This document shows, in pieces, positions 4,038 to 48,678 of a DNA stretch of 53,823 bases. Where the stretch lies: NCBI GenBank assembly GCA_937935075.1, contig CALGYB010000115.1, positions 1 to 53,823 of the forward strand, written 5' to 3'. Within the stretch, counting starts at the first letter, position 1. Each line of letters begins with the position of its first letter. The translations under genes were made by a program, and so were the position numbers. This DNA is from an uncultured Roseiflexus sp. GTDB lineage: Bacteria; Chloroflexota; Chloroflexia; Chloroflexales; Roseiflexaceae. The notes below the pieces were generated by a model. It worked only from the letters and a program-made list of their open reading frames with translations, made no database searches and was not told the origin of the DNA.

Positions 4038-5660
4038 CTACCGCGCCGCGACGCTTGCGGCGCTGCTGAGCGTTCCCCAGATCAGATTAGGCAGTAAACC
4101 GAGCAATACCACCAGCACGGTCGAAACAATGATTGCCGCGTTGGCGACCGGCGGCGTCCTGAACGGCGTAGTTTCGGGCGCCGGCAGAATCCACATTGCC
4201 TTGAGGAACCGCAGATAGTAGTACAGACTGACGACCGTCATAATGACAGCGATAGTCACCAGCGGCACAGCGCCCGCCTGATAGCCGGCCATGAAAACAA
4301 AGAACTTTGCCCAGAACCCGGCAAGCGGCGGAATGCCTGCCAGTGAGAGGATGAGGACCGTCATCATCAGCGTCAGCGGCATGTTGCGTCGCCACAATCC
4401 CTGCATCGCACTCAGATCGTCGCTGCCCAGCGCATTGGTCAGCACCGCCAGCACGCCGAAGCTGCCCAGGTTCGTGAGCGAGTAGACGATCAGGTAGTAG
4501 ATCAGGGCAGCCGTGCCAAAGGTGCGGTCCACAGGCGACGTTGATGACCAGAGCAGCACAGCCAGCAGCAAAAACCCGGCGTGCCCGATCGACGAGTACG
4601 CCAGCAGGCGGCGCGCATTCGTCTGCGGCAGCGCCGCCAGGTTCCCGACAATCACGGTCACCAGCGCCAGAATCGCCAGGATGCTGCTCCAACCGTTGAA
4701 CTCTTCCAGGCGCGGCGCGCCAACCGCTCCCGGGAACGCCGTCGTTAGCAACCGGTAGAGGAGCAGGAAACCGGCTGCCTTCGACGCCGTCGAGAGGAAG
4801 GCGGTCACCGGCGGCGGCGCGCCCTGATAGACATCCGGCGCCCAGGTATGGAATGGCACGACCGAAATCTTGTACCCCAGACCGGCAATGATGAAGAGCA
4901 TACCGAGGATCAGCAGCGGGCTGCTGGCGGCATCGCCAGTTGCAAAGCGCCCGACCTCCGCAAAGAGCGTGGCGACGATTGGCGTACCGCCCGCTTTCTG
5001 GTTCTCACTGGCGACAAATCCATAGACCAGGCTGATGCCGTAGAGCAAGATTGCCGATGACAGCGACCCGAACAGGAAATATTTCAGCCCGGCTTCTGGT
5101 GAACGTTCGCTCTCGCGGAAGTACCCGGCGAGCACGTAGAGCGAAATCGACGACAACTCGAGCGCCAGGTACGCCAGAATGAATTCCGTCGCCGCCGCCA
5201 TGATCGACATCCCCAGCGCCGAGAAGATCAGCAGCGAATAGAATTCACCGGGGTTGGCGGTCAACCGATACCCCATCGCCAGCAGAGTCGTCAGGAACGC
5301 AGCGCCGATAAAGGTCAGGCGCGCCACCATCGTGAATTCATCGGTTGCAAACGCACCCAGGATCGGCGACCCGCCCGGTCCACCCGCCTGCAAATTGCGT
5401 CCCAGCGTCAACAGCACATCCAGCGGCCCGCCAGTTGGGTCGGGCACGGTAAAGAGAAAGCGGCTCTGCACCAGCCCAACAATAAAGACCAGCCCCAGTC
5501 CAGTGGCAGTCAGTTGACCGGCTTCTCTGGCACGTTCGAATTGCGCCTGCGGTCCGCGTCCCCAGCGTGTCAGCACATCGGAGCCGAGCACCAGCAACCC
5601 CAGGAGCAGAAGCATCAACTCCGGCAGAATGCGTGGAATATCGGTGATTTGGAACGACAT
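4038..5660 (-). CDS. nuoN: NADH-quinone oxidoreductase subunit N
   Basis: This antiporter-like membrane subunit of complex I (about 540 aa) has roughly 14 hydrophobic segments. It carries the family signatures [20 protein letters not shown] (with the loop HTWAPD) and [13 protein letters not shown]. The ATG at 5660 ([18 protein letters not shown]) is chosen because it begins at the first conserved segment; an upstream in-frame extension lies in repeat DNA. It is the last nuo gene and is separated from the second nuoM by a 147-bp gap holding two copies of a GC-rich hairpin. Confidence 0.93.
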
Positions 5661-5807
5661 ATGATCTTCGCCTTCCCACCTGCAACGATCAACCCTGCAC
5701 CCTGTCAGGCGAGCCGGGGAGGGCACGGCAGCGCCGCGCCCCTACCTTCCCTATGCACCGCGCGCCGTCCGTGCGGGCGCGGCAGCGCCGCGCCCCTACC
5801 TCAACCG
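5661..5807. repeat. Two GC-rich hairpin repeats inside nuo operon
   Basis: Two direct copies (about 5722-5748 and 5778-5804) of GGCrCGGCAGCGCCGCGCCC followed by CTACCT. Each can fold through GGGCGCGGC/GCCGCGCCC (9-bp stem on the transcript strand). They may tune mRNA stability or attenuate nuoN; that role is inference. Confidence 0.6.
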
Positions 5808-7325
5808 TCACCGCATCCCCAGCGTTCCGGCGCGCGCCAGCGCCTCAGCGATCGGCTGCATGCTGGCTTCGATCGGCTCGGTCAGGTACGCCGGGTAGAG
5901 ACCGCTGACGATCAGCACAACCACCAGAATAATACCGGCAGCGTACTCCTGCACCGTCAGCTTGGGCAGATGGCGGAACTCGGGATTTTTGATTTCGCCG
6001 AAGAACACCCGGTACACCGCGATCAGGATGTAGCCCGCCGTGATCGGGATCGAAATGCCCGCCAGCACTGCGATGAGCGGGAAACGTTGCCACATGCCCA
6101 TGAAAATGTTGAACTCCGCCCAGAACCCTGCCAGCCCCGGCATACCCATCGACGACAAGCCGGCGATGATAAAGACAATCGCCGCAAACGGCATCACCGT
6201 GAACAGGCCCCCAAGCTCAGGAAACTGCCGAGTATGCGTCCGGTCGTACACCATCCGCCCGACAACCGCAAAGAAGAGCGCCGTCATCACGCCGTGTGCG
6301 AACATCTGAAGCACCGCGCCGGTCATGCCGATCGTGTTCGCCGCCGCCAGACCCATGAGAGTCAATCCCATGTGGCTGACCGACGAATACCCGATCATGA
6401 ACTTGAAGTCGCGTTGCGTCATAGCGATGCTGGCGCCGTACACCGCGTTGATCAACGTGGCGATGGCAATCGGCAGCAGCCAGTAATTAGCGCCTTCGGG
6501 AAAAATCCACATCGCCACGCGCAGGCAACCATACGCCCCCAGTTTCATCAGCACGCCCGCGTGCAGCATCGACACCGCAGTCGGCGCAGCGACGTGACCG
6601 GTCGGCGACCAGGTGTGGAACGGGAACATGCCCGCCAGTACCGCAAACCCCAGGAAGAGCGGCACGAAGAAGACGATCTGCACATCACGCGAGAACAGCG
6701 CCGATTGCGCCAGCAGGCGCATATCGAAGGTGCGCAGCGTGCCGCTGAAATACACAGCGACCATGCCCAGAATGATGAATGCCGATCCGCCCATCAGGTA
6801 GAGCGTCAGTTTCATCGCGCCGTACTCTTTGCGCGTGCTCCCCCAGATGCCGATCAGCAGGTACATCGGCAACACTGCCAGTTCATAGAAAATAAAGAGC
6901 AGGAAGAGGTCGAGCGACACGAAGACGCCGTACACCCCCGCCGCCAGCAACAGCAGCAATGCCCAGTACTCGCGGGTCCGATCCTCAATGTTCCAGCTGA
7001 TCAGCGCGCCGGTGAAAATGACCAGGCCGTTGAGCAGCAGCATCGGCAGGCTGATGCCATCGACGCCAAGGATGTAGTTGATGCCGAGTTCCGGCAACCA
7101 GGGAATTTCTTCGAGAAACTGAAACGTCTCCGGGCTGCGGTAGTCATACGCCAGATACACCAGCAGCGTCAACACCAGCGAAATGAACGAGAAGATCGCG
7201 CCAACCATCCGGATTTCCTGCTTCTGCTCCGGTTTCAGCAGCGCAATAATGAATGTCGGTATCGCCAGGCTGAGCCATATCAGACTGAGCCACGGCACAT
7301 TTGCCGGCAGATCGATCAGGTTCAT
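5808..7325 (-). CDS. nuoM: NADH-quinone oxidoreductase subunit M (second copy)
   Basis: This 505-aa NuoM-type proton-pumping subunit begins MNLIDLPANVPWLSL and has the conserved blocks LGVDGISLPMLLLNGL, FPFHTWSPTGHVAAPTAVSM, GYSSVSHMGLTLMGLA and GLSSMGMPGLAGFWAEFNIF. The length is typical for NuoM. It starts 8 bp after another full nuoM gene (7334-9034). Since both copies look intact, it is predicted to be the extra pump module of a complex with two NuoM subunits rather than a decayed duplicate. Confidence 0.92.
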   Translation of the reverse strand: MNLIDLPANVPWLSLIWLSLAIPTFIIALLKPEQKQEIRMVGAIFSFISLVLTLLVYLAYDYRSPETFQFLEEIPWLPELGINYILGVDGISLPMLLLNGLVIFTGALISWNIEDRTREYWALLLLLAAGVYGVFVSLDLFLLFIFYELAVLPMYLLIGIWGSTRKEYGAMKLTLYLMGGSAFIILGMVAVYFSGTLRTFDMRLLAQSALFSRDVQIVFFVPLFLGFAVLAGMFPFHTWSPTGHVAAPTAVSMLHAGVLMKLGAYGCLRVAMWIFPEGANYWLLPIAIATLINAVYGASIAMTQRDFKFMIGYSSVSHMGLTLMGLAAANTIGMTGAVLQMFAHGVMTALFFAVVGRMVYDRTHTRQFPELGGLFTVMPFAAIVFIIAGLSSMGMPGLAGFWAEFNIFMGMWQRFPLIAVLAGISIPITAGYILIAVYRVFFGEIKNPEFRHLPKLTVQEYAAGIILVVVLIVSGLYPAYLTEPIEASMQPIAEALARAGTLGMR

Positions 7326-7333
7326 AGAACGAC

Positions 7334-9034
7334 TTATGCTCCTCCCGCCACCCGGATGAACACTTCCACCAGCGCGGTCGCCGTCCGGTTCGACAGGTCC
7401 ATAATCGGCGCGGGATACACTCCCAGGATCAGGAGCGCAATCAGCAGCGGCGCAACCGCCAGAAACTCACGTCCGGCGAGGCGCATGTCGGGCATCGCGC
7501 TGCGCTCGTTGGCTTTACCGTGGAAGATCTGCCCATACATCCGCAGCAACGCCAGCGCCGTCACCACCAGCCCAATTGTCGCCAGCAGCGCGAAGAGCGG
7601 CAGCGACGCCCACACACCGCGGAAGATGAAGAATTCGCCGACGAACCCGGCAAGCCCAGGCAACCCCAGATTGCCGAAGGTCGCCACGCCCATCGCCCCG
7701 GCAAAAACCGGCATAGTCGTGCGCAACCCGGCGAGCGATCCCATTTCATCGGAACCGGTGCGCTCGGCAAGCATACCCGCCATCAGGAAGAGCGCACCGG
7801 TCGAAAGACCATGCGCCACCATCTGGAACAGTGCACCGTTGATCGCTGTTGCGCGGGTGGCGGCATCCGCTGCGCCAACGGTCGCTGCGGCAGCAATCGC
7901 CAGCCCGACGTACCCCATGTGATTGACCGAGGTATAGGCGATCAGGCGCTTGAGGTCGCCGCCGACCTGACCGAGCGCGCCAAAGGCGCCCGCCACCACG
8001 CCGATCAGCGCCAGCGCGCCAATCGCCGGACCAAAATACTGCGCTGCATCGGGAACAAATGGCAACAGCAGGCGCAGCATCCCATAGGCGCCCATCTTCG
8101 ACATCACGGCTGCCAGCAGAATAGACGCCGCCGGCGGCGCTTCGCTATAGGCATCGGGCAGCCAGGTATGGAAGGGCCAGATGCCGAGTTTGATTGCGAA
8201 CGCGACAAAGATCGCCCAGAACGCGATTGATGTGTAGAGCAGCGGGTAGCGCCCAAGCACAGCGGCAATCCCCAGTTGCTCGACATAGTTGAAGATGATC
8301 TCACCCAATGTCAGGTTCACCGGATCGAGCGCCGCGCGTTCGACGGTCAGCCCCTGACCCAGACGCGCCAGCGTGATCAGATCGAATGTCGGGATGCCGG
8401 CCGCAGCCGTGGCGACGTAGAAGAACTGGAAGAGCAGCAGCATGCCGATTGACCCGGCCATGGTATAGACGAAGAACTTGAGCGCGGCATTACGGCGGCG
8501 TTGCTCCGGGTCGGCGGCGTCAGCATGGCGGCGTCCCCATCCCTGAATGAGGAAATACGCCGGCACCAGGCTGAATTCCCAGAAGATGAAGAAGAAAAAG
8601 AAATTGAGCGCCAGGAAGTACCCCAGCATCGCCGCTTCCAGCAGGAACATGAGCGCGATGTACAGCTTCACGCGCTCAGTGATGCCGAACGATGCCAGCA
8701 TCGCCACCGGCGCCATCACCGCCGTCAGAATGACCAGCGGCATACTGATGCCGTCCACACCAACGAAATAATCGACCCGGATCGCCTGCACCCACGGAAT
8801 CTTCTCGACAAACTGCACCACCCCCTGACCGTCGGCGGTCGCATTCGGGTTGAACCCGACCCAGACAATGATCGCCAGCGCCAGGGGAATGGTCGACCAC
8901 GCAGTGGCGCCAATCTTGACCGTCCGGTCATCAAGTCGCAGCGCGCCTGCCAGCCCTGCCAGCGCCAGCCCGACCAGCGGCGACAGGATGAGCAGCGTGA
9001 GCCAGGGTGTCGATGCGTATGCCAGGTAGGTCAT
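7334..9034 (-). CDS. nuoM: NADH-quinone oxidoreductase subunit M (first copy)
   Basis: A 566-aa NuoM-type subunit with blocks VDYFVGVDGISMPLVILTAV, IWPFHTWLPDAYSEAPPAAS, YTSVNHMGYVGLAIA and GNLGLPGLAGFVGEFFIF. It is about 60 residues longer than the second copy, partly from an extended loop near residues 150-230 (GRRHADAADPEQRRRNAAL, then VERAALDPVNLTLGE). The ATG at 9034 begins with a clear membrane segment. The 318-bp gap upstream toward nuoL is full of repeats, but gene order and strand support one operon. Confidence 0.92.
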   Translation of the reverse strand: MTYLAYASTPWLTLLILSPLVGLALAGLAGALRLDDRTVKIGATAWSTIPLALAIIVWVGFNPNATADGQGVVQFVEKIPWVQAIRVDYFVGVDGISMPLVILTAVMAPVAMLASFGITERVKLYIALMFLLEAAMLGYFLALNFFFFFIFWEFSLVPAYFLIQGWGRRHADAADPEQRRRNAALKFFVYTMAGSIGMLLLFQFFYVATAAAGIPTFDLITLARLGQGLTVERAALDPVNLTLGEIIFNYVEQLGIAAVLGRYPLLYTSIAFWAIFVAFAIKLGIWPFHTWLPDAYSEAPPAASILLAAVMSKMGAYGMLRLLLPFVPDAAQYFGPAIGALALIGVVAGAFGALGQVGGDLKRLIAYTSVNHMGYVGLAIAAAATVGAADAATRATAINGALFQMVAHGLSTGALFLMAGMLAERTGSDEMGSLAGLRTTMPVFAGAMGVATFGNLGLPGLAGFVGEFFIFRGVWASLPLFALLATIGLVVTALALLRMYGQIFHGKANERSAMPDMRLAGREFLAVAPLLIALLILGVYPAPIMDLSNRTATALVEVFIRVAGGA

Positions 9035-9352
9035 AAGTTCACCACGGGTGATTCTTCTGCGCGTAACCGCTTATGCTTTTCCCGGAAGCGCAGGCATCCT
9101 GCCTGCCCGCACGAACGATTCTCTTGGGTCGGCGGGACGCCATGCACCGGCGCCTGTCACAACCATTCCGCCGCCGATTTTTTATTTCGGGGGCAACCCC
9201 CGACCCCCCTGTAGTCGCCCGGTATCGCCCGATCCAGCCGCGCAGGCGGGCTTTGCAACCGGAACCCGCGGCTTCTTCAGTTGCCGGGCAGGCAGGGTTT
9301 GGCAGGTTCTCTGCGCCTCTGTGCCTTTGTGAATCTTCCCCGCATTCCACGC
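9035..9352. repeat. Repeat-filled gap between nuoL and nuoM
   Basis: It contains a REP-like block (9085-9117), an inverted GGGGGCAACCCCCGACCCCC tract (about 9190-9210), and at 9308-9333 a copy of a dispersed motif reading, on the minus strand, ACAAAGGCACAGAGGCGCAG. Related motifs are at 18350-18365 and 52315-52338. An open frame across it on the minus strand has no recognisable protein features and is read as repeat. Confidence 0.6.
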
Positions 9353-11533
9353 TCAACGCACCAGGTACAGGTACAGGACGCCGAGCACCACTGCCCCCGC
9401 GAACGCCAGCGCCACATAATCCTGCACCTTGCCGGTTGACGTGCGACGGGTGCGATCACCGGCGACCTGCGTACCGGTCGCCATCAGATCGGCGCCATCG
9501 TTCAACAGCGCATCGTCCACGATAAAATTGACCTGCCCCAGAAACCGGGTCAAGCGCCCCGTTTCAACCACCACCCGGTCGATCACCTGCTCGTCGAGCC
9601 AGGTCCAGACACGTGCCAGCACCGCAGCGGCGACGCCAACCGTCGCAGCATACAGTTCATCGAAGTAGAACTTGCGGTTGAGCACCGTGAAGACGCCGGG
9701 CATCATGCGCTCGAGCGGATCGGCTTCCTCGGCGGATGACGCGAAGGCATTGCGGTACACCAGCCATCCCAGCAGAATGCCGCCAATCGCAATGGCGCCG
9801 GAAATCCCCATGACCAGCAGGTTCAGTTTTCCGGCTTCCTGCCCGAAGAAATCCGCCAGATGGTGGAAACCGTCGAACGGCAGGTTGACGACGCCGGCAA
9901 ACACCGCGAACAGCGCCAGTATTACCAGCGGCGTCGTCATCGTCCAGGGGCTTTCGTGCGGGTCGTGCGCCTCGTAGTGATGGTCATCGTGCGACACGAA
10001 GGCATACGGCTGCTGTCGCGGATGATGCCCGCGGAACGAGCCGAAGAACACCACCATAATCTGGCGCGTCATATAAAACGCCGTCAGCAGCGACGCCAGA
10101 CTCAGCACCACCCACACGAGCGTGTTGGCGCGGAACGCATCCGCCAGGATCTCGTCCTTGCTCCAGAAGCCGGCGAAGCCGGGGAACCCGGCGAGCGCCA
10201 GGAAACCCGCCATGTACGCCAGAAACGTCACCGGCATAAAGCGGCGCAACCCGCCCATGTTACGAATGTCCTGAGCGGTATTCGAGTCATGCCCGACCGT
10301 CGCCTCCATGCCGTGGATGACCGAGCCGGAGCCGAGGAACAGCAGCGCCTTGAAGAAGGCGTGAGTGAGCAGATGGAACATCGCCGCCACCCACCCGCCA
10401 ATGCCGAGCGCCGCAACCATGAATCCCAGTTGCGAAAGGGTCGAATACGCTAGAATGCGCTTGATATCGAACTGCCCGACGGCGATCAGCGCGGCGAAGA
10501 GCGCCGTAAACGCGCCAATTGTCGCCACCACCGGCAGGGCATCACTGACCTGGAAGATCGGGAAGGTGCGCGCCGTCAGGAATACCCCCGCCGACACCAT
10601 GGTGGCGGCGTGGATGAGCGCGGAAACCGGCGTCGGACCTTCCATCGCGTCGGGGAGCCAGACGTGAAGCGGAAACTGCGCCGATTTGCCGATCGTGCCG
10701 CTGAAGATCAGCAGCGCAATACCGGTAGCGGCGCTGATCCCGATGCCGGTCGTCGTCGTCGCCAGGCGCTCGAGCAGTTCGGGATTGAACACCTGCCCCG
10801 GTCCTGCGCCGAGTTCAAGGGTTCCGGCTTCGGTCCATAGCCATGCCAGACCGATCATGAAGAGCACATCGCCGATGCGGGTGGTAATGAACGCCTTGAT
10901 TGCCGCCTGACGCGGAGTGATCTGATTCGGGTCGGCATAGTTCTTATCGTACCAGAAGCCAATCAACAGGTACGAGCAGAGACCCATAATCTCCCACGCC
11001 ATGAAGAACAGGAGCAGGTTGCTCGCCATCACCATCGCCAGCATCGCGGCGGTGAAGAGCGAAATGAACGAGAAGAAACGCGCCTGACGCGGGTCGTGCG
11101 CCATGTAACCGACCGAAAACAGGTGAATGCAGGTGGCGGTGACTGTCACCATCATCAGCATCGCCGCCACCGCCGGGTCGATGATATACCCCATCGTAAA
11201 GGGAACATCACCACCAGCCGGCGCCCAGCGGATTGTGCGGACGATATTCGGATCGCGCCACTCGAACCCATGCCCGGCGCCTTTTTCGGCGGCGGGTTCA
11301 GCGGCGTGCGACTCTTCCGCGTGCGCAGCAACCGTGCCGTCCATTGCAATCTTCACGCCGCCGGCGACTTCGACGGCTGTACCGACGGCGATGATCGTGG
11401 CGCCGACCATCAACAGCGTCGCCAGCCAGGCGCTCGCGTTCTTGTTGCGCTGAATTGGCGTCAGCGTAATGACTGCAAACCCGATCAACGGCAGCAGCGG
11501 GATCAGCCAGGCATTTTCGAGAAACCATCCCAT
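9353..11533 (-). CDS. nuoL: NADH-quinone oxidoreductase subunit L
   Basis: The distal pump subunit of complex I, about 726 aa from the ATG at 11533 (MGWFLENAWLIPLLPLIGF; AAGG about 8 bases upstream). Signatures are HLFSVGYMAHDPRQARFF, QFPLHVWLPDAMEGPTPVSA, AATMVSAGVFL, YSTLSQLGFMVAALG and FKALLFLGSGSVIHGM. It is longer than the roughly 610 residues usual for NuoL. There is a long hydrophilic loop after the second segment (about residues 60-105). The C-terminal lateral helix region also carries roughly 20-25 extra residues between VIDRVV and TGKVQDY (about residues 665-690). The latter feature is expected in complexes with an added NuoM. Confidence 0.93.
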   Translation of the reverse strand: MGWFLENAWLIPLLPLIGFAVITLTPIQRNKNASAWLATLLMVGATIIAVGTAVEVAGGVKIAMDGTVAAHAEESHAAEPAAEKGAGHGFEWRDPNIVRTIRWAPAGGDVPFTMGYIIDPAVAAMLMMVTVTATCIHLFSVGYMAHDPRQARFFSFISLFTAAMLAMVMASNLLLFFMAWEIMGLCSYLLIGFWYDKNYADPNQITPRQAAIKAFITTRIGDVLFMIGLAWLWTEAGTLELGAGPGQVFNPELLERLATTTTGIGISAATGIALLIFSGTIGKSAQFPLHVWLPDAMEGPTPVSALIHAATMVSAGVFLTARTFPIFQVSDALPVVATIGAFTALFAALIAVGQFDIKRILAYSTLSQLGFMVAALGIGGWVAAMFHLLTHAFFKALLFLGSGSVIHGMEATVGHDSNTAQDIRNMGGLRRFMPVTFLAYMAGFLALAGFPGFAGFWSKDEILADAFRANTLVWVVLSLASLLTAFYMTRQIMVVFFGSFRGHHPRQQPYAFVSHDDHHYEAHDPHESPWTMTTPLVILALFAVFAGVVNLPFDGFHHLADFFGQEAGKLNLLVMGISGAIAIGGILLGWLVYRNAFASSAEEADPLERMMPGVFTVLNRKFYFDELYAATVGVAAAVLARVWTWLDEQVIDRVVVETGRLTRFLGQVNFIVDDALLNDGADLMATGTQVAGDRTRRTSTGKVQDYVALAFAGAVVLGVLYLYLVR

Positions 11534-11630
11534 ACAGCGACCTTGCGTCAGCGAATAAGCGAATGCATCAACAAAGAAACGAACGCCCCAGCGCAACGTT
11601 CAACCGCCACGCAACGTTCGGCGGCAATCG

Positions 11631-11957
11631 TCAGCCGCGCAAACTATCGACCTCATCGGCGTTGACCGTCTGACGTGCGCGGTAGATCGCAATGATCATC
11701 GCCAGACCGATCGCGGCTTCTGCCGCTGCCACAGTAATAATGAACAGCGCGAACGTCTGCCCGGCGACAACGTTTGGCTCCAGGTAGCGCCAGAACGCCA
11801 CCAGATTGATATTGACGGCGTTGAGCATCAACTCGATGCCAAGCAGAATGCCGACGGTATTGCGCCGCGAGAGGGCGCCGAACAACCCAACGCAGAACAG
11901 CGCGCCAGCCAGGGTGAGCACCCACGGAAGCGGAACAGCCTCGGTCATTGACGGCAT
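11631..11957 (-). CDS. nuoK: NADH-quinone oxidoreductase subunit K
   Basis: A 108-aa protein with three membrane segments and the NuoK/MrpC signature [20 protein letters not shown], including the conserved membrane Glu residues in GIELM and [14 protein letters not shown] precedes the ATG at 11957 by about five bases; ATG at 11948 is the alternative. It forms the proton path between NuoJ and NuoN. Confidence 0.94.
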
Positions 11958-12012
11958 AACACGCCTCGATGCAGAACCATAGAGAAGAAGAACAACTCAG
12001 ATACTGCTGCAA

Positions 12013-12654
12013 TCATGACTCGCCGCCGGTCGCCTCCGACGCCTGGATGGCAGTTGCTGCCGGTTCGGGGAGCGGCGCCGGTTGCCGTTGTTGCCGGCGC
12101 AGGCGCACCTGTTCCGCCAGGGTCAGCACCCGGCGGCGGCGTTCGCGCTCCTCGAAAGCGATGACAATTGCGCCGATCATGGCGACCAGCAGCAGGATCG
12201 CCGCCACTTCGAACGGCAGAAGATACTCGCGCATGAATGCCGTACCGATCTGCTGGGCGCCGGAGATGGCCGGCGATTGTCCTGCCGGCGGCGGCGGCAG
12301 CTGCCAGGCGTAGGTCATGACCGTCGGCACAATCAGGAGACCGAACAGCGCCGCCGGCACGATCAACGCAATCCACCAGCGCGGCGTCAGTTGACGGTTC
12401 TGACTACCTTCCAGATCGCGTGTCAGCATAATGGCGAACAGGATCAGGATCGACACTGCGCCGACGTAGATCAGCACCTGCGCAACGCCGAGAAACTCCG
12501 CCTCCATCAACAGATAGAGCGCGCCGACGCCGAAGAACGACGAGATCAGCCAGAGCGCGGCATGCACGATATTCTTGACCGTGACGGTCATGATCGCAGA
12601 TGCCAGGATAAATGCGGCAAAGACCACGAACAGAATAGTGATCAACGTATTCAT
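12013..12654 (-). CDS. nuoJ: NADH-quinone oxidoreductase subunit J
   Basis: About 213 aa with five hydrophobic segments. It has NuoJ hallmarks: NIVHAALWLISSFFGVGALY, then YLLMEAEFLGVAQVLIYVGA and SILILFAIMLT. A charged C-terminal tail (EERERRRR to about the end) extends past the last segment. An upstream TTG is in frame, but the ATG at 12654 fits the family start better. 36 bp separate it from nuoH. Confidence 0.93.
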   Translation of the reverse strand: MNTLITILFVVFAAFILASAIMTVTVKNIVHAALWLISSFFGVGALYLLMEAEFLGVAQVLIYVGAVSILILFAIMLTRDLEGSQNRQLTPRWWIALIVPAALFGLLIVPTVMTYAWQLPPPPAGQSPAISGAQQIGTAFMREYLLPFEVAAILLLVAMIGAIVIAFEERERRRRVLTLAEQVRLRRQQRQPAPLPEPAATAIQASEATGGES

Positions 12655-12690
12655 AAGGCGCGCCAATACGATAAATAATGCGCTTGCATC

Positions 12691-14052
12691 TCAGGAAGCG
12701 ACGACCAATTCTTCCTCGATCCATTCTTCCTGCGTCGGGCGCTGATTGATCGAGAGAATCCAGTAGGCGGCGGCGATATTGATAATCGCCGTCACCAGAA
12801 TGGCGATCAATTGGCGCTGCCAGGGCGCAAACCCATCCAGGCTCAACAACCCGCCCCACTGTGCGCTCGTCCACTGCGTCAGCCCGACCATCAGCGATGC
12901 GGACACAATATTGACCAAAGCCAGCGGCAGCAACAGTTTCCAGGCAAAATCCATCAACTGATCGACGCGCAGCCGTGGAAACGCGCCGCGCAGCCAGATC
13001 ATCACAAAGAACAGAACCCAGATTTTGGCAAGCAGGTAGAATGCCGACAGCGCCGCCGCGACATGCACCCACGGACCGCCCATATTCGCCAGCGCCGCGA
13101 CTCCTGGTCCCTGCCATCCGCCGAGGAACGCGGTGGCAGCAAGCGCCGACAACGCAAAGTTGAGGATGTACTGCGCGATATAGAACGTCGCAAACTTCAT
13201 GCCGCTGTATTCGGTCATGTAGCCCGCAACAATCTCCGAGTCCGCCTCGGGTATGTCGAACGGGGTGCGCTCACCTTCAGCAAGCGCCGCAATGAAAAAG
13301 ACGATAAAGCCAAGCAATCCCACCGGCGTAAACACCCACCACCCCAGACCAAGGTCGAGCGCCTGCACCGGTTCACCCGGCGAGCCAGGGAACGACGTCA
13401 CCGTGGTGTACAGCGACGGCGAGCATCCTGCCGCATCGCCGCAGAGAATGGTTGCGCCCATGAGCGGCACGCCCGCCTGCATGTAGGGCAACTCCAGCAA
13501 CGACATGCCGCCGGCCAGAATGACGACCGTGAGCAGGGCTGTGACCGCCGGGATTTCGTAGGAGACCAGTTGCGCCACTGCGCGCATCGCACCGAGGAGC
13601 GCGAATTTGTTATTCGATCCCCAACCCGCCATCATCAATCCGACGCCCGACACGGCTGACACGGCGACGATGTAGAGCAGTGCGACATTCAGATCGATCG
13701 GCTCCCAGCCGCGCCCCCACGGAATGACGGCAAGCATCATCGCCACCGGCGCGAGCGAGACGATTGGCGCCAGCAAGTGCACCCATTGATCGGCGCTGCG
13801 TGGAACGATGTCTTCCTTGGTAAACATCTTGACCGCATCAGCGATCGGTTGGAGCAAACCAGCCGGTCCCACCCGATTTGGACCGAGGCGGTCCTGCATG
13901 CGCGCAACCACACGTCGTTCCGCCCACACCATCATAATGAAGTTTCCGACGGCATAGAACAGCACAATGGTGGTCACCAGCAGATAGGCGATCAGAACGA
14001 TCACCCAGTCCGGGAGGGCGCCGCCAATCCATGATCGCAGGATGTCGGTCAT
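12691..14052 (-). CDS. nuoH: NADH-quinone oxidoreductase subunit H
   Basis: This 453-aa quinone-site membrane subunit has conserved loops WAERRVVARMQDRLGPNRVG, QPIADAVKMFTKED and EGERTPFDIPEADSEIVAGY followed by TEYSGMKF. It is longer than the usual 320-350 residues, because of an inserted segment around residues 200-235 with two cysteines (ILCGDAAGCSPS) and a C-terminal extension of about 40 residues. AGGTGAG sits 7 bases before the ATG. The insertion lies before the segment that carries the quinone loop and looks like a periplasmic loop. Confidence 0.94.
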   Translation of the reverse strand: MTDILRSWIGGALPDWVIVLIAYLLVTTIVLFYAVGNFIMMVWAERRVVARMQDRLGPNRVGPAGLLQPIADAVKMFTKEDIVPRSADQWVHLLAPIVSLAPVAMMLAVIPWGRGWEPIDLNVALLYIVAVSAVSGVGLMMAGWGSNNKFALLGAMRAVAQLVSYEIPAVTALLTVVILAGGMSLLELPYMQAGVPLMGATILCGDAAGCSPSLYTTVTSFPGSPGEPVQALDLGLGWWVFTPVGLLGFIVFFIAALAEGERTPFDIPEADSEIVAGYMTEYSGMKFATFYIAQYILNFALSALAATAFLGGWQGPGVAALANMGGPWVHVAAALSAFYLLAKIWVLFFVMIWLRGAFPRLRVDQLMDFAWKLLLPLALVNIVSASLMVGLTQWTSAQWGGLLSLDGFAPWQRQLIAILVTAIINIAAAYWILSINQRPTQEEWIEEELVVAS

Positions 14053-14066
14053 AGCGTGCTCACCTG

Positions 14067-15221
14067 TTATTCTTCGCTTCCGTCATTTTGGGCAGCGGCT
14101 TTTTTCGCAGCATTCGCGGCGCGAATCGCCGCCAGGCGCGCGGCTTTGTCGGTCGGCGCGTCCCCCGTCGTCGGCGCAGGGGCTTCCGCTGCGGGTGGCG
14201 CGGAGGCGGCATCGGCGCCCTCAGCAGATTTCTTTGCCGCATTTGCGGCGCGAATCGCCGCCAGGCGCGCGGCTTTGTCGGTCGGCGCGCCCCCGGTCGG
14301 CGCAGGGGCTTCGGTAGCGCCTTCGTCTGTCTTTTTCGCCGCATTCGCGGCGCGGATCGCCGCCAGGCGCGCGGCTTTGTCGGCAGGCGTGCTCTCGCTT
14401 ACAGGTTCAGCCGATGCTTCGGCAGCCGTCTTTTCAGCAGCCCGGGCACGTGCAGCCGCCAGGCGCGCGGCTTTGTCGGCGGGTGCAGCATCAGGAGTTG
14501 CAGAAGCAGGGGCAGGCGCCTGCGCAGCAGCGGACTCGGCGCGTTTCGCCCTGATCTTCTCGACCATCTGCGGCGCAACGCCGATCAGGTCAGGACGGCG
14601 CTTCATGTTGCCCTGCAACTTCTTCATTGCGCTGTCCTTCACCTCCGCCCAGAACGACGGCGCGATCTTCTCGTAGTAGGAGATCGGGCGGTTCAACGCT
14701 TCCTTGTTAATCGTCAACCCGCCGTGCACATCGGTCGAATACTCGAACTCGTGATCCATTTTAATCGCGTCGAACGGGCAGACTTCCGCACACAGACCGC
14801 AACTCATGCAGGCGTCGTACTCGATCAGAAACTCAGCGACTGCCGGAACCGGCTTGCCGGTAGACGGATCGCGGGCCTGCGTCATATGGATGACCTGTGG
14901 CGGGCAGATACGCTGGCACTGGAAACACGAGGTGCACAATTCGTGCCCGGTCTCATCATCGTAGAGAAGGATCGGGAAATTGCGGAACGCCTCGGGCAGT
15001 TTCAGGCGTTCTTCCGGATACTGAACGGTAAACACGCCCGTCTGCTGACTTGGTTTTTCCAGTTTGCGCGTCAGCGCATCGCGAAAATGGCGAAAGACGA
15101 CATCGAGGCCCGTCAGCAACCCCTGACCGGCGCGCAGTCTGGGGCGGCTGCGGTCAATAACATAGACCCCGCCTCGCGTCGTTTGGACTTCGGTTGGTTC
15201 AGTCTGTATTTCAGTCGTCAT
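14067..15221 (-). CDS. nuoI: NADH-quinone oxidoreductase subunit I with repeat tail
   Basis: Residues 1 to about 190 form the NuoI ferredoxin-like subunit with both [4Fe-4S] motifs intact (CTSCFQCQRICP and CMSCGLCAEVCP). These pass electrons toward cluster N2 in NuoB. The following ~190 residues are an Ala/Lys/Arg-rich tail built from four repeats of about 18 conserved residues (consensus ADKAARLAAIRAANAAKK) separated by Pro/Ala/Glu linkers. Usual NuoI length is about 160-200 aa; this is about 384. The ATG at 15221 has AAGGTG 8 bases upstream. The tail is predicted to be helical, basic and cytoplasmic. Confidence 0.92.
   Translation of the reverse strand: MTTEIQTEPTEVQTTRGGVYVIDRSRPRLRAGQGLLTGLDVVFRHFRDALTRKLEKPSQQTGVFTVQYPEERLKLPEAFRNFPILLYDDETGHELCTSCFQCQRICPPQVIHMTQARDPSTGKPVPAVAEFLIEYDACMSCGLCAEVCPFDAIKMDHEFEYSTDVHGGLTINKEALNRPISYYEKIAPSFWAEVKDSAMKKLQGNMKRRPDLIGVAPQMVEKIRAKRAESAAAQAPAPASATPDAAPADKAARLAAARARAAEKTAAEASAEPVSESTPADKAARLAAIRAANAAKKTDEGATEAPAPTGGAPTDKAARLAAIRAANAAKKSAEGADAASAPPAAEAPAPTTGDAPTDKAARLAAIRAANAAKKAAAQNDGSEE
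14090..14490 (-). repeat. Four in-frame tandem repeats in nuoI tail
   Basis: Near-identical DNA segments of about 60 bp at 14098-14162, 14231-14291, 14333-14393 and 14427-14487 encode the DKAARLAAIRAANAAKK units. The last three protein units are almost identical and the first is more diverged (ARLAAARARAAEK), suggesting stepwise duplication toward the C-terminus. Confidence 0.85.
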
Positions 15222-15774
15222 CAAGGCTGCACCTTTACTCTGCATTCAATCATGCGCTCGAAAGGTCGCATTTTGCACATACGTGGTGCATCTCGATCGA
15301 TTCTTGTGCTTATCCATGAGGATTGTTTTCTATTATCCCAGATTGAGTTTCAAATCTAAGAGGAAGATCAACCGGGTATGAGACAATCTCGTGATTGATG
15401 TTGGCTTCGACAGGCTCAGCCAACGCCAACCGCTTCACAGGTGCAAGCGTGTTTGTCCGGGTTTAGACCGATCTTCCTAATAGATTATCGTACTTATAGA
15501 GCGAACAACCAGATGTTGCACACTACTTGCCCATGGTGACCATCTTGCGGCGGAGGTTGGCTTCGACAGGCTCAGCCAACGTCCGCTGCTCCACGTCCTT
15601 GAGCGTCCAGGTTTGGGTGATCGCTCTCGTAGGGCAAAGACGGTGTAATGGACTGTTTCCACAATACGACATGCTTACCTTCGACCTTCGCACAGTCAAC
15701 CCTCACTCTGCCACCTGAGCGCCAGTCACGTTGCCGATGGGAACATGGCCGACGACATTCAACCGCACAACACG
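15222..15774. other. 553-bp gene-free gap in the nuo operon (nuoD to nuoI)
   Basis: No gene is supported. The gap holds a TTCGACAGGCTCAGC hairpin with stem GTTGGCT/AGCCAAC (about 15402-15426), a full family-1 hairpin element (15498-15627), and an AT-rich stretch near 15300-15360. This is the only large break in an otherwise compact operon and could contain a processing site or a secondary promoter. Confidence 0.6.
15498..15627 (+). mobile_element. Hairpin MITE-like element, family 1, copy 2
   Basis: It aligns with 3296-3426: left end AGAGCGAACAACC, central TTGGCT-TCGACAGGCTC-AGCCAA hairpin, the segment TCCACGTCCTTGAGCGTCCA, and right end GGTGATCGCTCT. It is 130 bp long with no coding capacity. 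Confidence 0.7.
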
Positions 15775-16899
15775 TTAACGATCCACCTCACCCATCACGA
15801 TATCGATGCTCCCAAGGATAACCACCACATCGGCGACCTTATGGCCCCGACACATATCGCCGAGCGGCGTCAGGTTGATGAACGACGGAGCGCGCACCTT
15901 GTAGCGATATGGTCGCTCGCTGCCATCGCTCACCAGGTAGAAGCCCAGCTCCCCTTTCGGCGACTCGATGCGCGCATACGCATCACCCGGCGGCGGGCGC
16001 AGCGCCTTCTGCTTGCCGATGTTCGCCATCGACGGATTGATATGCCCGCCAGTCGTATCAGGCAGGCGCTCGATCACCTGCTGCAGAATCCGATAACTCT
16101 GCCGCATCTCCTCGATACGGATCAGGAAGCGGTCATACACATCCCCCACCGACCCGATTGGAATATCAAAGTCGAGTTCGTCGTACACGCTGTACGGTTC
16201 AGCCCGGCGCACATCATACGGAATGCCCGACGCGCGCAGCACCGGACCGGTGACGCTATACGAGACGGCGACTTCTTTCGGCAGAATGCCGACATTCACG
16301 GTGCGCGACAACAAGATCTCATTTTCTTTCAACAAACGCTCGAACTCATCGAAGAACGCCGGCAACCCCTGCATCAACTCCTTGAGTTGCGGAATGAATT
16401 CGGGCGGGAGGTCGCGCCACACGCCGCCGAAGCGGAAATAGTTGCACATCATCCGGGCGCCGCTCGCCATCTCGAACAGATCGAGGATCTTCTCCCGCTC
16501 CCGCATGCCGAACATCAGCGGCGTCTGCCAGGCGCCCATATCGTTGAGCAAGAAGCCCACTGCCGAGGCATGGTTCAGAATACGGGTCAGTTCGACCATC
16601 AGCACCCGAATGTACTCAGCGCGCTGCGGCACACTGATGCCGGCCAATTTCTCGACCGCCAGCGCCAGCGCGTGGTTGTTCGCCATCGAATTGAAATAAT
16701 CGAGACGGTCGGTGTACGGCATCGACTGAATGTAGGTCGAAACCTCCGCCAGTTGCTCGTGATTGCGGTGCAGATAGCCGAAGACCGGCTTCAGATCGAT
16801 GATCGTCTCACCATCGACGGTGACGATCATGCGAAAGACGCCGTGGGTTGACGGATGTTGCGGACCGATATTGATCTGGAGTTCCTGCGTTTGAAGCAT
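15775..16899 (-). CDS. nuoD: NADH-quinone oxidoreductase subunit D
   Basis: A 374-aa, 49-kDa-type subunit that lines the quinone-reduction site with NuoB. Conserved blocks are [54 protein letters not shown] and [16 protein letters not shown]. It is not fused to NuoC. The start is 8 bp after the nuoC stop. Confidence 0.95.
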
Positions 16900-16907
16900 C
16901 GCTCACA

Positions 16908-17477
16908 TCACTCTTCACTATCGCCAAAATACTTATCACCCTGTTTGGGAAAATCTTTCCGCATCGGCCACCCCTCGAACTCATCCCACATATAAATGCG
17001 GGTCAGATTCGGATGACCGGGGAAGACCACGCCGAACAGGTCAAACGCCTCGCGCTCCTGAAGGTTTGCTCCGGGCCACTCATTGGTAAGCGATGGCACG
17101 ACTGGCTGATCGCGCGGTACACGGGTTTTGACCACCAGTTCGGGACCGCCGTCGAGATGATAGAAATGGTAGACGATCTCGATCACACCATCAGCAAGGT
17201 AATCGACCGCAGTGATATTCGAGAGCAACTCATAGCCAAGGACGTCGCGCACGTAGCGCGCCACGTCGGGAAGGCGCTCAGGATACACCACGGCATCGTC
17301 GGTCGCCAGCAGATCGACCGGCGCGTGCTCCCCTCGCTTATGGCGCGCCGCTTTACCATCGCCAGCCGATGCTTCGCTCCCATTGCTCGTCTGCGTGCGG
17401 GGGCGTGTCGGCATCAGGGCGCCGGGCAGATCGTGAGCCAATCGCTCTTTGAGTTCAGCGCTGCTGATCTTTGGCAT
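16908..17477 (-). CDS. nuoC: NADH-quinone oxidoreductase subunit C
   Basis: About 189 aa, the 30-kDa-type peripheral-arm subunit. The C-terminal half has the family signature [27 protein letters not shown] and [13 protein letters not shown]. The N-terminal 60 residues include a low-complexity Gly/Ser/Lys stretch not typical of the core domain. The ATG at 17477 is preceded by GAGGTGG and lies inside the end of nuoB (23-bp overlap), implying coupled translation. Confidence 0.94.
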
Positions 17478-18261
17478 GGTCCACCTCAACAGCAGGGCGT
17501 TTCAGGTCATTATGCGCAATCTCCGGTGCAACGCCTTTCGCCTTCTGGGGCGATTCCAGTTCGACGGTTTCGTCCATGATCGGGAAATGGCGCACCAGTT
17601 CAGGATGTTCGATCAGCCCCGAGCGCATCTCTCCATGGGTTGGCGACGTATACGGACTAATGAGCGGCAACCCGCCGACCGGATCGACCAGTTTGCCATC
17701 GATCTCCAGCCCATGCTTCCCGAAGGTCGGCACCGGATATTCCTTCGCTTCACGTTTCCCATACCAGCGCACCCGGTTCAGGCGTTGCGCATCGATCTGC
17801 TTCTGCAACGTCATCAAGGCGTGGAGCAAGGCTTCGGGGCGCGGCGGGCAACCCGGAATATAGACATCAACCGGGATCAGGAGATCGATCCCGCGCAACA
17901 CATTGTACCCATCGCGGAACGGCCCGCCAGAGGTGGCGCAGGCGCCCATCGAAATAACATAGCGTGGTTCGGGCATCTGATTGTAGAGGCGCACCACCTG
18001 CGGCGCCATTTTCTTCGTCACCGTCCCCGCGACGATCATCAGGTCCGCCTGGCGCGGCGATGCGCGAAACATCTCGGCGCCGAAGCGCGCCAGGTCGAAG
18101 CGCGCCAGACCGGTTGCCATCATCTCGATGGCACAGCACGCAAGGCCAAACGACAGGGGCCAGACTGACGAACGCCGCCCCCAGTTATAAAATCGCTGCA
18201 TGGTCGTCAAAAAGACGCCCTGCTTTTCCGCTTCGAGCTGGATATCACGATCATCAGACAT
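17455..18261 (-). CDS. nuoB: NADH-quinone oxidoreductase subunit B
   Basis: This 268-aa subunit holds terminal cluster N2. It has the adjacent-cysteine motif [10 protein letters not shown] plus MGACATSGG and [15 protein letters not shown], giving all four ligands. It is longer than typical NuoB (about 160-220) through a C-terminal extension from about residue 175 ([20 protein letters not shown] onward), as in some other Chloroflexi and Deinococcus-type proteins (from memory). GAGGGAG precedes the ATG. The upstream gap to nuoA is a 7-bp tandem repeat. Confidence 0.95.
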
Positions 18262-18271
18262 TGCTCATCTC

Positions 18272-18345
18272 CCTCTCACCTCTCACCTCTCACCTCTCAC
18301 CTCTCACCTCTCGCCTCTCACCTCTCACCTCTCACCTCTCGCCTC
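18272..18345 (-). repeat. Heptamer tandem repeat between nuoA and nuoB
   Basis: About ten units of GAGGTGA/GAGGCGA on the transcript strand, ending directly before the nuoB ribosome site GAGGGAG. Each unit is itself purine-rich and Shine-Dalgarno-like. The same heptamer occurs at 43399-43536. Confidence 0.85.
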
Positions 18346-18393
18346 ACTCCCACAAAGGCGCAGAGTTCGCCTTCATTCCCTGCCTCGCCTCAT

Positions 18394-18750
18394 CTACACC
18401 CACTCGAGTGCGCCCTTCTTCCATTCGTACACCAGACCGCCAACCAGGATAACCAAAAAGACCGCCATGGCAATCAGCGCAAACAGCCCAAGCTGCCCAT
18501 ATGCGACGGCCCAGGGATAAAGGAAGACCACCTCGATATCGAAAATCACAAACGCCAGTGCGTACAGATAATACTGAATCTTGAACTGCACCCGAATATC
18601 GCCAATCGCTTCCAGACCGCACTCATACGTGTCGAGCTTGATCGGCGTGGGGCGTTTGGGACCAAGGAAATACGCGGCCACCAGCGGGACGAGCGGGAAG
18701 ATGACCGCACCGATAAAAAACACGCCAATAAACGCATAGTTCGCCAACAT
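18394..18750 (-). CDS. nuoA: NADH-quinone oxidoreductase subunit A
   Basis: 118 aa, three membrane segments, with the NuoA signature [20 protein letters not shown] and [20 protein letters not shown]. It is the first gene of the operon; AAGGAG lies about ten bases before the ATG. Confidence 0.95.
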
Positions 18751-19697: not shown

Positions 19698-20783
19698 ATG
19701 GTCAGGAACAAACCGATGACATCTGGAATTTCGATGTACCGCCTGGCTCTGGTAGGATTTGGGAGCGTCGGTCGCGGATTCGCCGAGATACTGTCGTTGC
19801 ATCGTCAGCGTTTTGTTGATCGTTACGGCGTCGATGTACAGATCGTCGCCGCCTGCACCCGGCGCTGGTGTGTGTACGACCCGAACGGGATCGACGCTGC
19901 AACGCTGCTACGCGCTGCGGCATCGGACGCAATCGGTGAATTGCCGGGTGCGCGCGCCTGGAATACCGATCAGATGATCGCTCAGGTAGACGCCGATGTG
20001 CTGGTGGAAGCGTCGCCGACCGATATGATGACAGGCGAACCGGCGACGACGTACATCCGGGCAGCCATCGCGCGCGGAATGCACGTCATTACTGCCAACA
20101 AAGGACCGATCGCGCTTTACTTCGCTGAACTTCGTCGCCTCGCGGAAGAACGCGGCGTCACGCTCGGCTTCGAGGCCACCGTGATGTCGGGCACGCCGGC
20201 GTTGCGCCTGGGATGGAGCGATCTTGCCGGGTGCGACATCCAGGAAGTGCGCGGGATCGTGAATGGCACCACCAATTTCATTCTGACCAGAATGGAACGC
20301 GGGATGGATTACGCCAGCGCACTGGCGGAGGCGCAACGCCTGGGGTATGCCGAAACCGACCCAACCGGCGATGTGGAGGGACACGATGCCGCTGGCAAAG
20401 CCGCCATCCTGGCGAATGTCCTGATGGATGCGCGCCTGACCCCGGCGGATGTCGAGTGCGAAGGGATCACCGGCATCACCCGCGAGATGGTCGCGGCGGC
20501 GGCGGCGGCGGGTGAACGCTGGAAACTGATTGCGCGCGTCTGGCGCGATGGTCCGACAGTGCGGGCAGCGGTGCGTCCGCTGCGGTTAATGATCGCGCAT
20601 CCGCTGTCCAGTGTCGATGGCGCAACCAATGCGCTGGCAATCACCACCGACCTGCTCGGCGATGTGACGATCATCGGTCCTGGCGCCGGCGGGGTCGCCA
20701 CCGGCTTTGCGATTCTGTCCGACTTGCTGGCGTTGCATCGGGTTCGGAGAACTGAGAACCAAGAACCGAGAACTGAGAACTGA
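19698..20783 (+). CDS. hom: Homoserine dehydrogenase
   Basis: This 361-aa protein reduces aspartate semialdehyde to homoserine in Thr/Met/Ile biosynthesis. The N-terminal Rossmann fold has GFGSVGRG and VLVEASPTDMMTGEPATTYI. The catalytic domain has TANKGPIALYF, GIVNGTTNFILTRM and PTGDVEGHDAAGKAAILANV. There is no C-terminal ACT domain, so feedback inhibition by threonine through ACT is not expected. GAAGGAAGG precedes the ATG at 19698; ATGs at 19716 and 19737 are alternatives. The last 12 codons lie in a heptamer repeat that supplies the stop. Confidence 0.92.
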   Translation: MVRNKPMTSGISMYRLALVGFGSVGRGFAEILSLHRQRFVDRYGVDVQIVAACTRRWCVYDPNGIDAATLLRAAASDAIGELPGARAWNTDQMIAQVDADVLVEASPTDMMTGEPATTYIRAAIARGMHVITANKGPIALYFAELRRLAEERGVTLGFEATVMSGTPALRLGWSDLAGCDIQEVRGIVNGTTNFILTRMERGMDYASALAEAQRLGYAETDPTGDVEGHDAAGKAAILANVLMDARLTPADVECEGITGITREMVAAAAAAGERWKLIARVWRDGPTVRAAVRPLRLMIAHPLSSVDGATNALAITTDLLGDVTIIGPGAGGVATGFAILSDLLALHRVRRTENQEPRTEN

Positions 20784-20823
20784 GAACCAAGAACCGAGAA
20801 TCGAGAACTGAGAACTGAGAACC
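20748..20823 (+). repeat. GAGAACT/GAGAACC heptamer repeat
   Basis: About eleven 7- to 8-base units (GAGAACT, GAGAACC, AAGAACC). It begins inside the end of hom and provides its TGA. The same repeat lies at 48622-48678, where it ends another gene. Confidence 0.85.
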
Positions 20824-23533: not shown

Positions 23534-23612
23534 TGGGTTAGGGGTTAGAGGTTAGGGGTTAGAGGTTAGAGGTTAGAGGTTAGGGGTTAGGGGTTAGAGG
23601 TTAGAGGTTAGA
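23534..23612. repeat. GGTTAGA/GGTTAGG heptamer repeat
   Basis: About eleven 7-base units of GGTTAGA and GGTTAGG between divergent menA and nurA, followed to about 23735 by a pyrimidine-rich tract of repeated CCCACTCCC/CCTGCC pieces. The nurA promoter begins after it. Confidence 0.85.
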
Positions 23613-39699: not shown

Positions 39700-40200
39700 G
39701 AAGCGGGGCTGGCGCCTGGCATCCAACCCGCCGGGGCGAGGGCGCTTCAGCGCCCTTCGTTCGCTCAGCCCGGCGCTTCAGCGCCGGGCGACACAGCGGG
39801 CGGGCGCCCGGCATCCAACCCGCCGGAGCGAGGGCGCTTCAGCGCCGGGCGGCGCAGCGGGCGGGCGCGCCTGGCATCCAACCCGCCGGAGCGAGGACGC
39901 TTCAGCGCCCTTCGTTCGCTCAGCCCGGCGCTTCAGCGCCGGGCGACACAGCGGACGGGCGCCCGGCATCCAACCCGCCGGAGCGAGGGCGCTTCAGCGC
40001 CCTTCGTTCGCTCAGCCCGGCGCTTCAGCGTCGGGCGACACAGCGGACGGGCGCCCGGCATCCAACCCGCCGGGGCGAGGACGCTTCAGCGCCGGGCGGC
40101 GCAGCGGGCGGGCGCCTGGCATCCAAGCGGGCGGGCGCTCGGCATCCAACCCACCGGAGCGAGGGCGCTTCAGCGCCGGGCGACACAGCGGGACCGCCCG
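39700..40200. repeat. Seven-copy complex repeat array
   Basis: Seven copies of a GGCATCCAACCC core at about 39719, 39809, 39873, 39966, 40057, 40120 and 40141. Each is usually followed by GCCGGnGCGAGGnCGCTTC and the hairpin GGCGCTTCAGCGCC. Unit length alternates between about 64 and 91 bp, depending on whether a 28-bp CCTTCGTTCGCTCAGCCCGG module is present. It fills the 768-bp gap between two genes; open frames through it are not genes. Confidence 0.85.
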
Positions 40201-43398: not shown

Positions 43399-43536
43399 CC
43401 TCTCGCCTCTCGCCTCTCACCTCTCGCCTCTCACCTCTCGCCTCTCGCCTCTCGCCTCTCGCCTCTCGCCTCTCACCTCTCACCTCTCGCCTCTCACCTC
43501 TCGCCTCCTGCCTCTCCCCTCTCCCCTCTCCCCTCT
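43399..43536 (-). repeat. Long GAGGCGA/GAGGTGA heptamer repeat
   Basis: About twenty 7-base units (minus strand GAGGCGA or GAGGTGA), the same unit as at 18272-18345. It ends 10 bp from the stop of the alpha/beta hydrolase-cNMP gene. Confidence 0.85.
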
Positions 43537-43546
43537 TGCCCCGCAA

Positions 43547-48630: not shown

Positions 48631-48678
48631 GAACTGAGAATTGAGAACTGAGAACTGAGAACTGAGAATTGAGAACCG
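48622..48678 (+). repeat. GAGAACT/GAGAATT heptamer repeat
   Basis: Eight 7-base units of GAGAACT and GAGAATT, overlapping the 3' end of the hydrolase gene and giving its TGA. Same family as 20748-20823. Confidence 0.85.

Follow-up and report, generated by a model that had tools for sequence, protein, structure and literature searches.

The window analysed here, a stretch of 53,823 nucleotides from an uncultured Roseiflexus sp. (contig CALGYB010000115.1 of assembly GCA_937935075.1), contains a minus-strand operon of 12 complex I genes in the order nuoA B C D I H J K L M M N, in which the iron–sulfur (Fe-S) subunit NuoI is extended at its C-terminus by a tail of repeated units (Table 1). None of nuoE, nuoF and nuoG is among the genes identified in the run from 4038 to 18750, and it is NuoI that occupies, in the architecture of complex I, the place where the NADH module would attach. 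The genome (4.85 Mb) has two NuoF-type matches, on contigs C39 and C47, neither of which is the contig of the window. Contig C39 holds another complex I locus, with a NuoF (456-residue frame) and a NuoI paralogue, in which open reading frames resembling NuoF, a 925-residue NuoG and NuoH were recognized by eye. A similar pair is described for Chloroflexus, where sets of 14 and of 12 genes are reported, the smaller one having an additional nuoM (PMC8004040; cf. PMC3150298), the 12-gene cluster of Chloroflexus aggregans being termed the 2-M complex (PMC8004040).

The nuoI gene encodes 384 residues on the minus strand, the plus-strand frame at 14067-15221 being nonsense. Its product finds its best NCBIfam model in TIGR01971 at 84.4 bits, below the curated cut-off of 113.05, which marks it as a divergent NuoI; from its two Fe-S motifs, this best match and its place in the operon, the protein is best described as NuoI-type. 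All four cysteines of each 4Fe-4S motif are invariant in an alignment of 57 rows (A4), and the core is 60-96% identical to that of relatives in the order and 40-49% identical to outgroup cores in Chloroflexota. The protein had been called about twice the normal size in a sequence-only reading of this DNA, and rightly so, since outgroup NuoI proteins have mostly 201-223 residues and the paralogue elsewhere in the genome, which resembles the window's NuoI in its core only, lies in a 170-residue frame. When the whole protein was compared with the PDB, 45 sequences were found, with their best stretches inside the core (query 60-190) and none in the tail.

The tail consists of the 159 residues that follow the core (226-384), rather than the approximately 190 first supposed, and comprises three exact DKAARLAAIRAANAAKK units and one divergent N-terminal unit, DKAARLAAARARAAEK, separated by acidic linkers rich in alanine and proline. 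The first description of four repeats thus captured the repetitive nature of the C-terminus and missed that its members are unequal: the profile built from NuoI units gives 38.7-41.2 bits to the three exact units and 2.2 bits to the divergent one. Nor is the tail basic as a whole, as had been thought, for its net charge is +2, the three exact units contributing +12 and the remainder -10. Tandem Repeats Finder reported nothing at the tail, which is not a tandem array at the DNA level, presumably because the spacers vary. The call for a structure prediction was answered by an AlphaFold2 model (57 sequences) with one helix per unit, mostly at a predicted local distance difference test score (pLDDT) of 70-93, and linkers between units at about 38-58, within a whole model that is modest (mean pLDDT 68, predicted template modelling score 0.43). 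On a helical wheel, all the large residues of the unit fall inside an arc of 140 degrees (permutation p 0.0006; peak at 100 degrees per residue).

Table 1. Features of the window (residue numbers refer to NuoI)
Feature	Coordinates	Strand	Basis
nuoI, 384 residues, ATG at 15221	14067..15221	minus	translation; TIGR01971 match
NuoI core, residues 1-225	14547..15221	minus	identity to relatives
First 4Fe-4S motif, CTSCFQCQRIC, residues 96-106	14904..14936	minus	CxxCxxCxxxC pattern
Second 4Fe-4S motif, CMSCGLCAEVC, residues 138-148	14778..14810	minus	CxxCxxCxxxC pattern
Tail unit 1, divergent, DKAARLAAARARAAEK, residues 248-264	14430..14480	minus	2.2 bits; predicted helix 250-269
Tail unit 2, DKAARLAAIRAANAAKK, residues 280-297	14331..14384	minus	profile; predicted helix 279-299
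Tail unit 3, DKAARLAAIRAANAAKK, residues 314-331	14229..14282	minus	profile; predicted helix 314-334
Tail unit 4, DKAARLAAIRAANAAKK, residues 357-374	14100..14153	minus	profile; predicted helix 357-380
nuoA	18394..18750	minus	PF00507 E 2e-38
nuoB	17455..18261	minus	NF011394 E 3.1e-163
nuoC	16908..17477	minus	TIGR01961 E 5.5e-34
nuoD	15775..16899	minus	NF008974 E 4.3e-143
nuoH	12691..14052	minus	NF004741 E 1.7e-96
nuoJ	12013..12654	minus	NF005163 E 1.1e-42
nuoK	11631..11957	minus	PF00420 E 4.6e-28
nuoL	9353..11536	minus	NF005141 E 5.8e-178
nuoM, first copy	7334..9034	minus	TIGR01972 E 3.3e-136
nuoM, second copy	5808..7325	minus	TIGR01972 E 2.8e-139
nuoN	4038..5660	minus	TIGR01770 E 2e-110
7-base tandem arrays	18268-18345, 20747-20823, 23536-23612, 43399-43540, 48622-48676		Tandem Repeats Finder

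The units bear the marks of purifying selection. Between the window's three exact units there are 3, 4 and 5 synonymous differences in the pairwise comparisons and no non-synonymous one. A wider set was drawn from 88 loci, which gave 68 distinct proteins once those with no methionine near the expected start, with an X or with no stop within the locus had been dropped; 46 of these belong to members of the order Chloroflexales and, with the window, make 47 distinct genes. Across these, the proportions of synonymous (pS) and non-synonymous (pN) differences in the last unit are 0.71 and 0.19 (pN/pS 0.27), as computed from 1081 non-independent pairs in which synonymous sites are near saturation. 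In the same genes, mean pairwise identity reaches 73% within the last unit but drops to 25% over the 17 residues that precede it, a stretch where the bias towards alanine and proline alone yields some identity. By the strict pattern, one gene has a single unit, 19 have two, eight have three, 13 have four, five have five and one has six, with inter-unit linkers of 14-61 residues. The search for the repeat and the copy counts once proposed for other NuoI proteins thus reveal a unit kept across the order in one to six copies, not the random loss, unconserved among close relatives, that would have told against it. The tail is real and under selection, and the NuoI that bears it is encoded in a complex I operon devoid of the NADH module.

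Within the phylum, the unit is widespread in the order and was found nowhere else among the genomes searched. A whole-genome search found it in 67 of 82 Chloroflexales genomes, an order that includes Chloroflexus, Roseiflexus and Herpetosiphonaceae, while the NuoI core was found in 65; both are present in 64 genomes and neither in 14, of which 11 belong to one genus (g8), and the three genomes with a unit and no core are fragmented assemblies (G016, G424 and G041). Elsewhere in the class the unit was found in none of 76 genomes (158 searched, 67 positive, all in the order), and in the rest of the phylum in none of 360 (an even draw of 400 genomes, 37 positive, again all in the order). At the level of loci, 39 of 44 Chloroflexales-like NuoI loci (L142-L185) have at least one unit. 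Three of the remaining five lie at contig edges (L166, L169 and L185), a fourth (L153) has its units in another frame beside an assembly gap, and the fifth (L148) has a clear stop. No unit was found in 36 other NuoI loci (L186-L221, from Anaerolineales, other Chloroflexota and one Omnitrophota), most of which encode proteins that finish with short stretches rich in alanine and lysine.

The unit also occurs on other proteins. Because a first profile (A1), on which the counts for the order and for the phylum sample rest, had included units from these very carriers, making its E-values circular for them, the search of 12 genomes and that of the class were rerun with a profile of NuoI units only (A2). 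Each exact unit of the window scores an E-value of about 1e-10 with A2; in the 12 genomes matches extend down to E 2.4e-4, the next best being at E 0.19, and a column-permuted A2 reached at best E 0.115 in the same genomes. The matches that were traced fall in NuoI tails, at the N-termini of MsrQ-like proteins and at the N-termini of proteins of about 200 residues with two predicted membrane helices, the last with a best E-value of 3.3e-11. The window's genome has one MsrQ-like carrier (G000:C123, E 4.1e-10), which is a distant match to PF01794 (E 1.3e-4, 22.5 bits against a cut-off of 28) and in which Pfam finds no domain for binding NAD(P)H or flavin. In Roseiflexus and in a Herpetosiphonaceae-type genome the MsrQ-like gene lies directly downstream of apbE, whose product in the window's genome matches PF02424 at E 2.9e-56, and a 150-residue neighbour in this cluster has no Pfam match. 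Histidines of the MsrQ-like protein whose pairs fit two b-haems are shared by all 13 aligned copies, 13 of 30 MsrQ-like loci having been recovered by the pattern used for this alignment.

The other forms of carrier are a fusion protein and the two-helix proteins. At L139:5605-6888 (G055:C95) and L130:4626-5783 (G037:C40), a protein of the MsrQ or ferric-reductase type with an N-terminal unit is joined to an OmpR-type DNA-binding domain (PF00486, E 3.1e-17 in the L139 fusion, G055 being the genome scanned for domains), and such a fusion may act as a membrane-bound transcription factor with a redox link. In families f2 and f3, the two-helix proteins at L126:6557-7153, L125:5617-6189 and L137:4913-5503 have about 190-200 residues, two N-terminal units and two predicted membrane helices; the genes around those at L125 and L126, seen as a listing of open reading frames, contain nothing that indicates a function.

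Comparison of the units between carriers bears on how they came to be shared. In a Herpetosiphonaceae-type genome (G042), the units of the MsrQ-like protein agree with those of its own NuoI at 10/17 positions, against 15/17 with NuoI units of other families, and the first unit of its two-helix protein agrees at 12 and 14 positions, respectively (12 and 12 for the second). In the window's genome, the MsrQ-like and NuoI units agree at 15/17 both ways. The MsrQ-like units of G042 therefore did not arise by recent copying from its own NuoI, being closer to the units found on NuoI in other families. Different proteins would thus have kept one consensus with no recent exchange between them, which is expected if all of them fit one partner.

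On this basis, we tentatively favour, at a little under an even chance, the reading that the tail is a string of helices, each a tethered docking site for a cytosolic partner that the carriers share; this partner would plausibly be the electron donor that the complex lacks. Each unit would form a single α-helix presenting K, R, L, I, R, N, K and K on one face and alanine on the opposite one, joined to the next by a flexible linker. The bulky face may be recognized by one cytosolic partner common to all carriers, and the multiple copies on NuoI would raise the local concentration of this partner beside the first Fe-S cluster. One step further, the likeliest partner would be a soluble protein that donates electrons, for instance a ferredoxin or a mobile reductase, because the complex I cluster lacks NuoEFG and the MsrQ-like protein lacks an NAD(P)H or flavin domain. 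Among the possibilities first listed for the tail (docking of a soluble donor, binding of membrane or nucleic acid, oligomerization of the complex), docking comes out best since other membrane proteins carry the same helix, the others being less probable. As one candidate for the common partner, a Hox-type second NuoF, a label derived from the size of the protein and from hydrogenase genes of Chloroflexus mentioned in the available text of PMC8004040, was considered and rejected, being present in a motif-free genus (g23) and missing from motif-bearing members of f2 and f3. This second, longer NuoF-like protein (G000:C47:29041-29292 and relatives, L255-L268) is found in many but not all families, and its distribution does not track that of the unit.

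Several observations weigh against this picture. The two-helix carrier matches no redox family, which weakens the electron-donor step since the partner need not be a donor at all. Conservation along the unit has no significant helical periodicity (p 0.82) because the alanine face is conserved too, so that the argument for a recognition face rests on residue type, and the spread of copy number from one to six implies that the number is not critical. Carriage by proteins other than NuoI is optional: the N-terminus of the MsrQ-like protein has no unit in the Chloroflexus genus g16 (G054, G045, G047, G050, G034, G040 and G058), in g21 (G052, G056 and G057) and in G401 and G379, while at L244, L247, L248 and L249 this N-terminus was not recovered. 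One genome (G440) has the NuoI core in a 232-residue frame and no match to the tail unit. At L148:3001-3720 (G008), NuoI stops right after the core, a natural tail-less variant in a genome that has yet one unit elsewhere; a frameshift was rejected as the cause of the missing tail at L148 and L036, where no unit is found in any frame.

A bolder version of the docking reading can be envisaged, in which a private Chloroflexales code of plug and socket lets one soluble donor recognize the helix on all four types of carrier, which we consider unlikely. The MsrQ-like haem protein would then feed extracytosolic flavoproteins and the two-helix protein would serve as a small membrane anchor. Such a code would share electrons among respiration, extracytosolic reduction and gene control, and the helix would then serve to pull out the donor that the headless complex lacks.

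The best surviving alternative, improbable as it seems to us, is that the units bind each other or those of other carriers, so that complex I would assemble with the MsrQ-like and small membrane proteins in one membrane cluster or supercomplex. Every carrier is indeed a membrane protein or a subunit of a membrane complex, K-L-I-N-K lies at 4-3-4-3 spacing within the unit like a short coiled-coil seam and several copies per chain would suit a multivalent assembly. However, 17 residues with two bulky hydrophobics are short for a self-standing coiled coil, and Chloroflexus has the unit on NuoI and not on its MsrQ-like protein. It is less probable still that the units are membrane-surface helices holding the tail to acidic lipids, as the leucine and isoleucine found with lysine and arginine on one face of each unit might suggest, for these are the only two hydrophobics of a bulky face that also bears a largely conserved asparagine, the sequence pattern is stricter than lipids require and the carriers are all at the membrane already.

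Since the genome has another complex I locus, on contig C39, that includes NuoF and a NuoI paralogue, and since 23/23 genomes examined have at least one NuoF-type match, the units might recruit NuoEFG from that other, complete complex I cluster. This is very doubtful, since genus g8 has NuoF without either this NuoI or the unit, so that canonical NuoF can do without the unit, and since the two-helix carrier would be left unexplained. Slightly harder still to credit is binding of nucleic acid or ribosomes through the basic face: it would be in keeping with the +12 of the three exact units and with the fusion of one carrier to an OmpR-type DNA-binding domain, whereas the linkers are acidic, the whole tail is at +2 and the leucine and isoleucine are conserved as much as the basic residues. 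Finally, neutral low-complexity expansion of an alanine/lysine-rich C-terminus, a notion encouraged by the endings of outgroup NuoI proteins and by the clear duplication of unit plus linker in some genomes (e.g. L017), is already disfavoured, and scarcely probable, given the silent-only differences between units, the pN/pS of 0.27, the strong contrast between unit and linker and the presence of the same unit on unrelated proteins.

Other features of the window are apart from this question. The 7-base tandem arrays listed in Table 1 have differing units (TCTCACC, GAGAACC, GGTTAGA, CCTCTCG and GAGAACT). A dense array of 63-176-base repeats at 39712-40177 is rich in the palindromic word GGCGCTTCAGCGCC. 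An open reading frame on the minus strand at 656-1354 has no Pfam match in the frame as given, and its C-terminal part resembles a REP-associated transposase (motif HFHLLIKT).

Earlier work has covered the complex itself and its two NuoM copies. For the tail, and for the occurrence of its unit on several membrane proteins, no description appears to exist in the literature searched, neither tail nor unit being mentioned in titles and opening lines of abstracts on NuoI extensions, on RsxC/RnfC repeats or on the complex I of Chloroflexus and Roseiflexus. Pfam matches on the tail are all below cut-off (KNOX1 and SDE2_2C) and no family covers it, and the unit profile found no match in the PDB up to E 10. 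The unit offers a 17-residue peptide usable as bait, present in multiple copies on an electron-entry subunit and repeated on membrane redox proteins. If it binds a donor, this would name that donor for a whole bacterial order, in a field where the electron source of complex I without the NADH module is called an open question in the available text of PMC11238625; if it binds something else, a shared organizing device of membrane redox proteins would be revealed.

Among known systems, the 11-subunit complex I-like enzymes of Bacillota also lack NuoEFG, and the excerpted description, in which their donor is unresolved and a docking platform for several donors is suggested, mentions no comparable tail (PMC11238625). 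Likewise, the 2M complex I of Nitrospira type, discussed in PMC9040806, has two NuoM copies as in the window (5808-7325 and 7334-9034), with no tail mentioned in the available part of its description. In MsrQ-like flavinylation systems (Meheust et al. 2021), a PF01794-type membrane protein is found beside apbE, as here, although the MsrQ-like protein of the window's genome differs in that it has no NAD/flavin domain match and starts with the unit of the NuoI tail. The likeness to enterobacterial RsxC (RnfC) drawn in the sequence-only reading holds for style, both being cytosolic Fe-S subunits of membrane redox complexes with serial, short, alanine-rich units containing lysine and arginine and joined by polar linkers, a resemblance of form and not of ancestry. 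It does not extend to sequence, since the NuoI-unit profile fails to match E. coli RsxC even at E 1000 (Z 5000, filters off with --max), which rules out homology at this level; the bulky and alanine faces are also less cleanly separated in the RsxC unit (p 0.08 vs 0.0006), and E. coli RsxC differs in itself bearing a Complex1_51K (NAD/FMN) domain. The closest precedent in function may be the ferredoxin-dependent NDH-1 of cyanobacteria and chloroplasts, which is, in the available accounts, also a complex I without the NADH module. There, ferredoxin binds a positive patch formed by NdhH and a hairpin of NdhI, the homologue of NuoI (PMC6992706), so that the site, as described in that excerpt, is a hairpin loop of NdhI with extra subunits nearby rather than a string of C-terminal helices; by analogy with it, docking of a ferredoxin on NuoI would be chemically reasonable.
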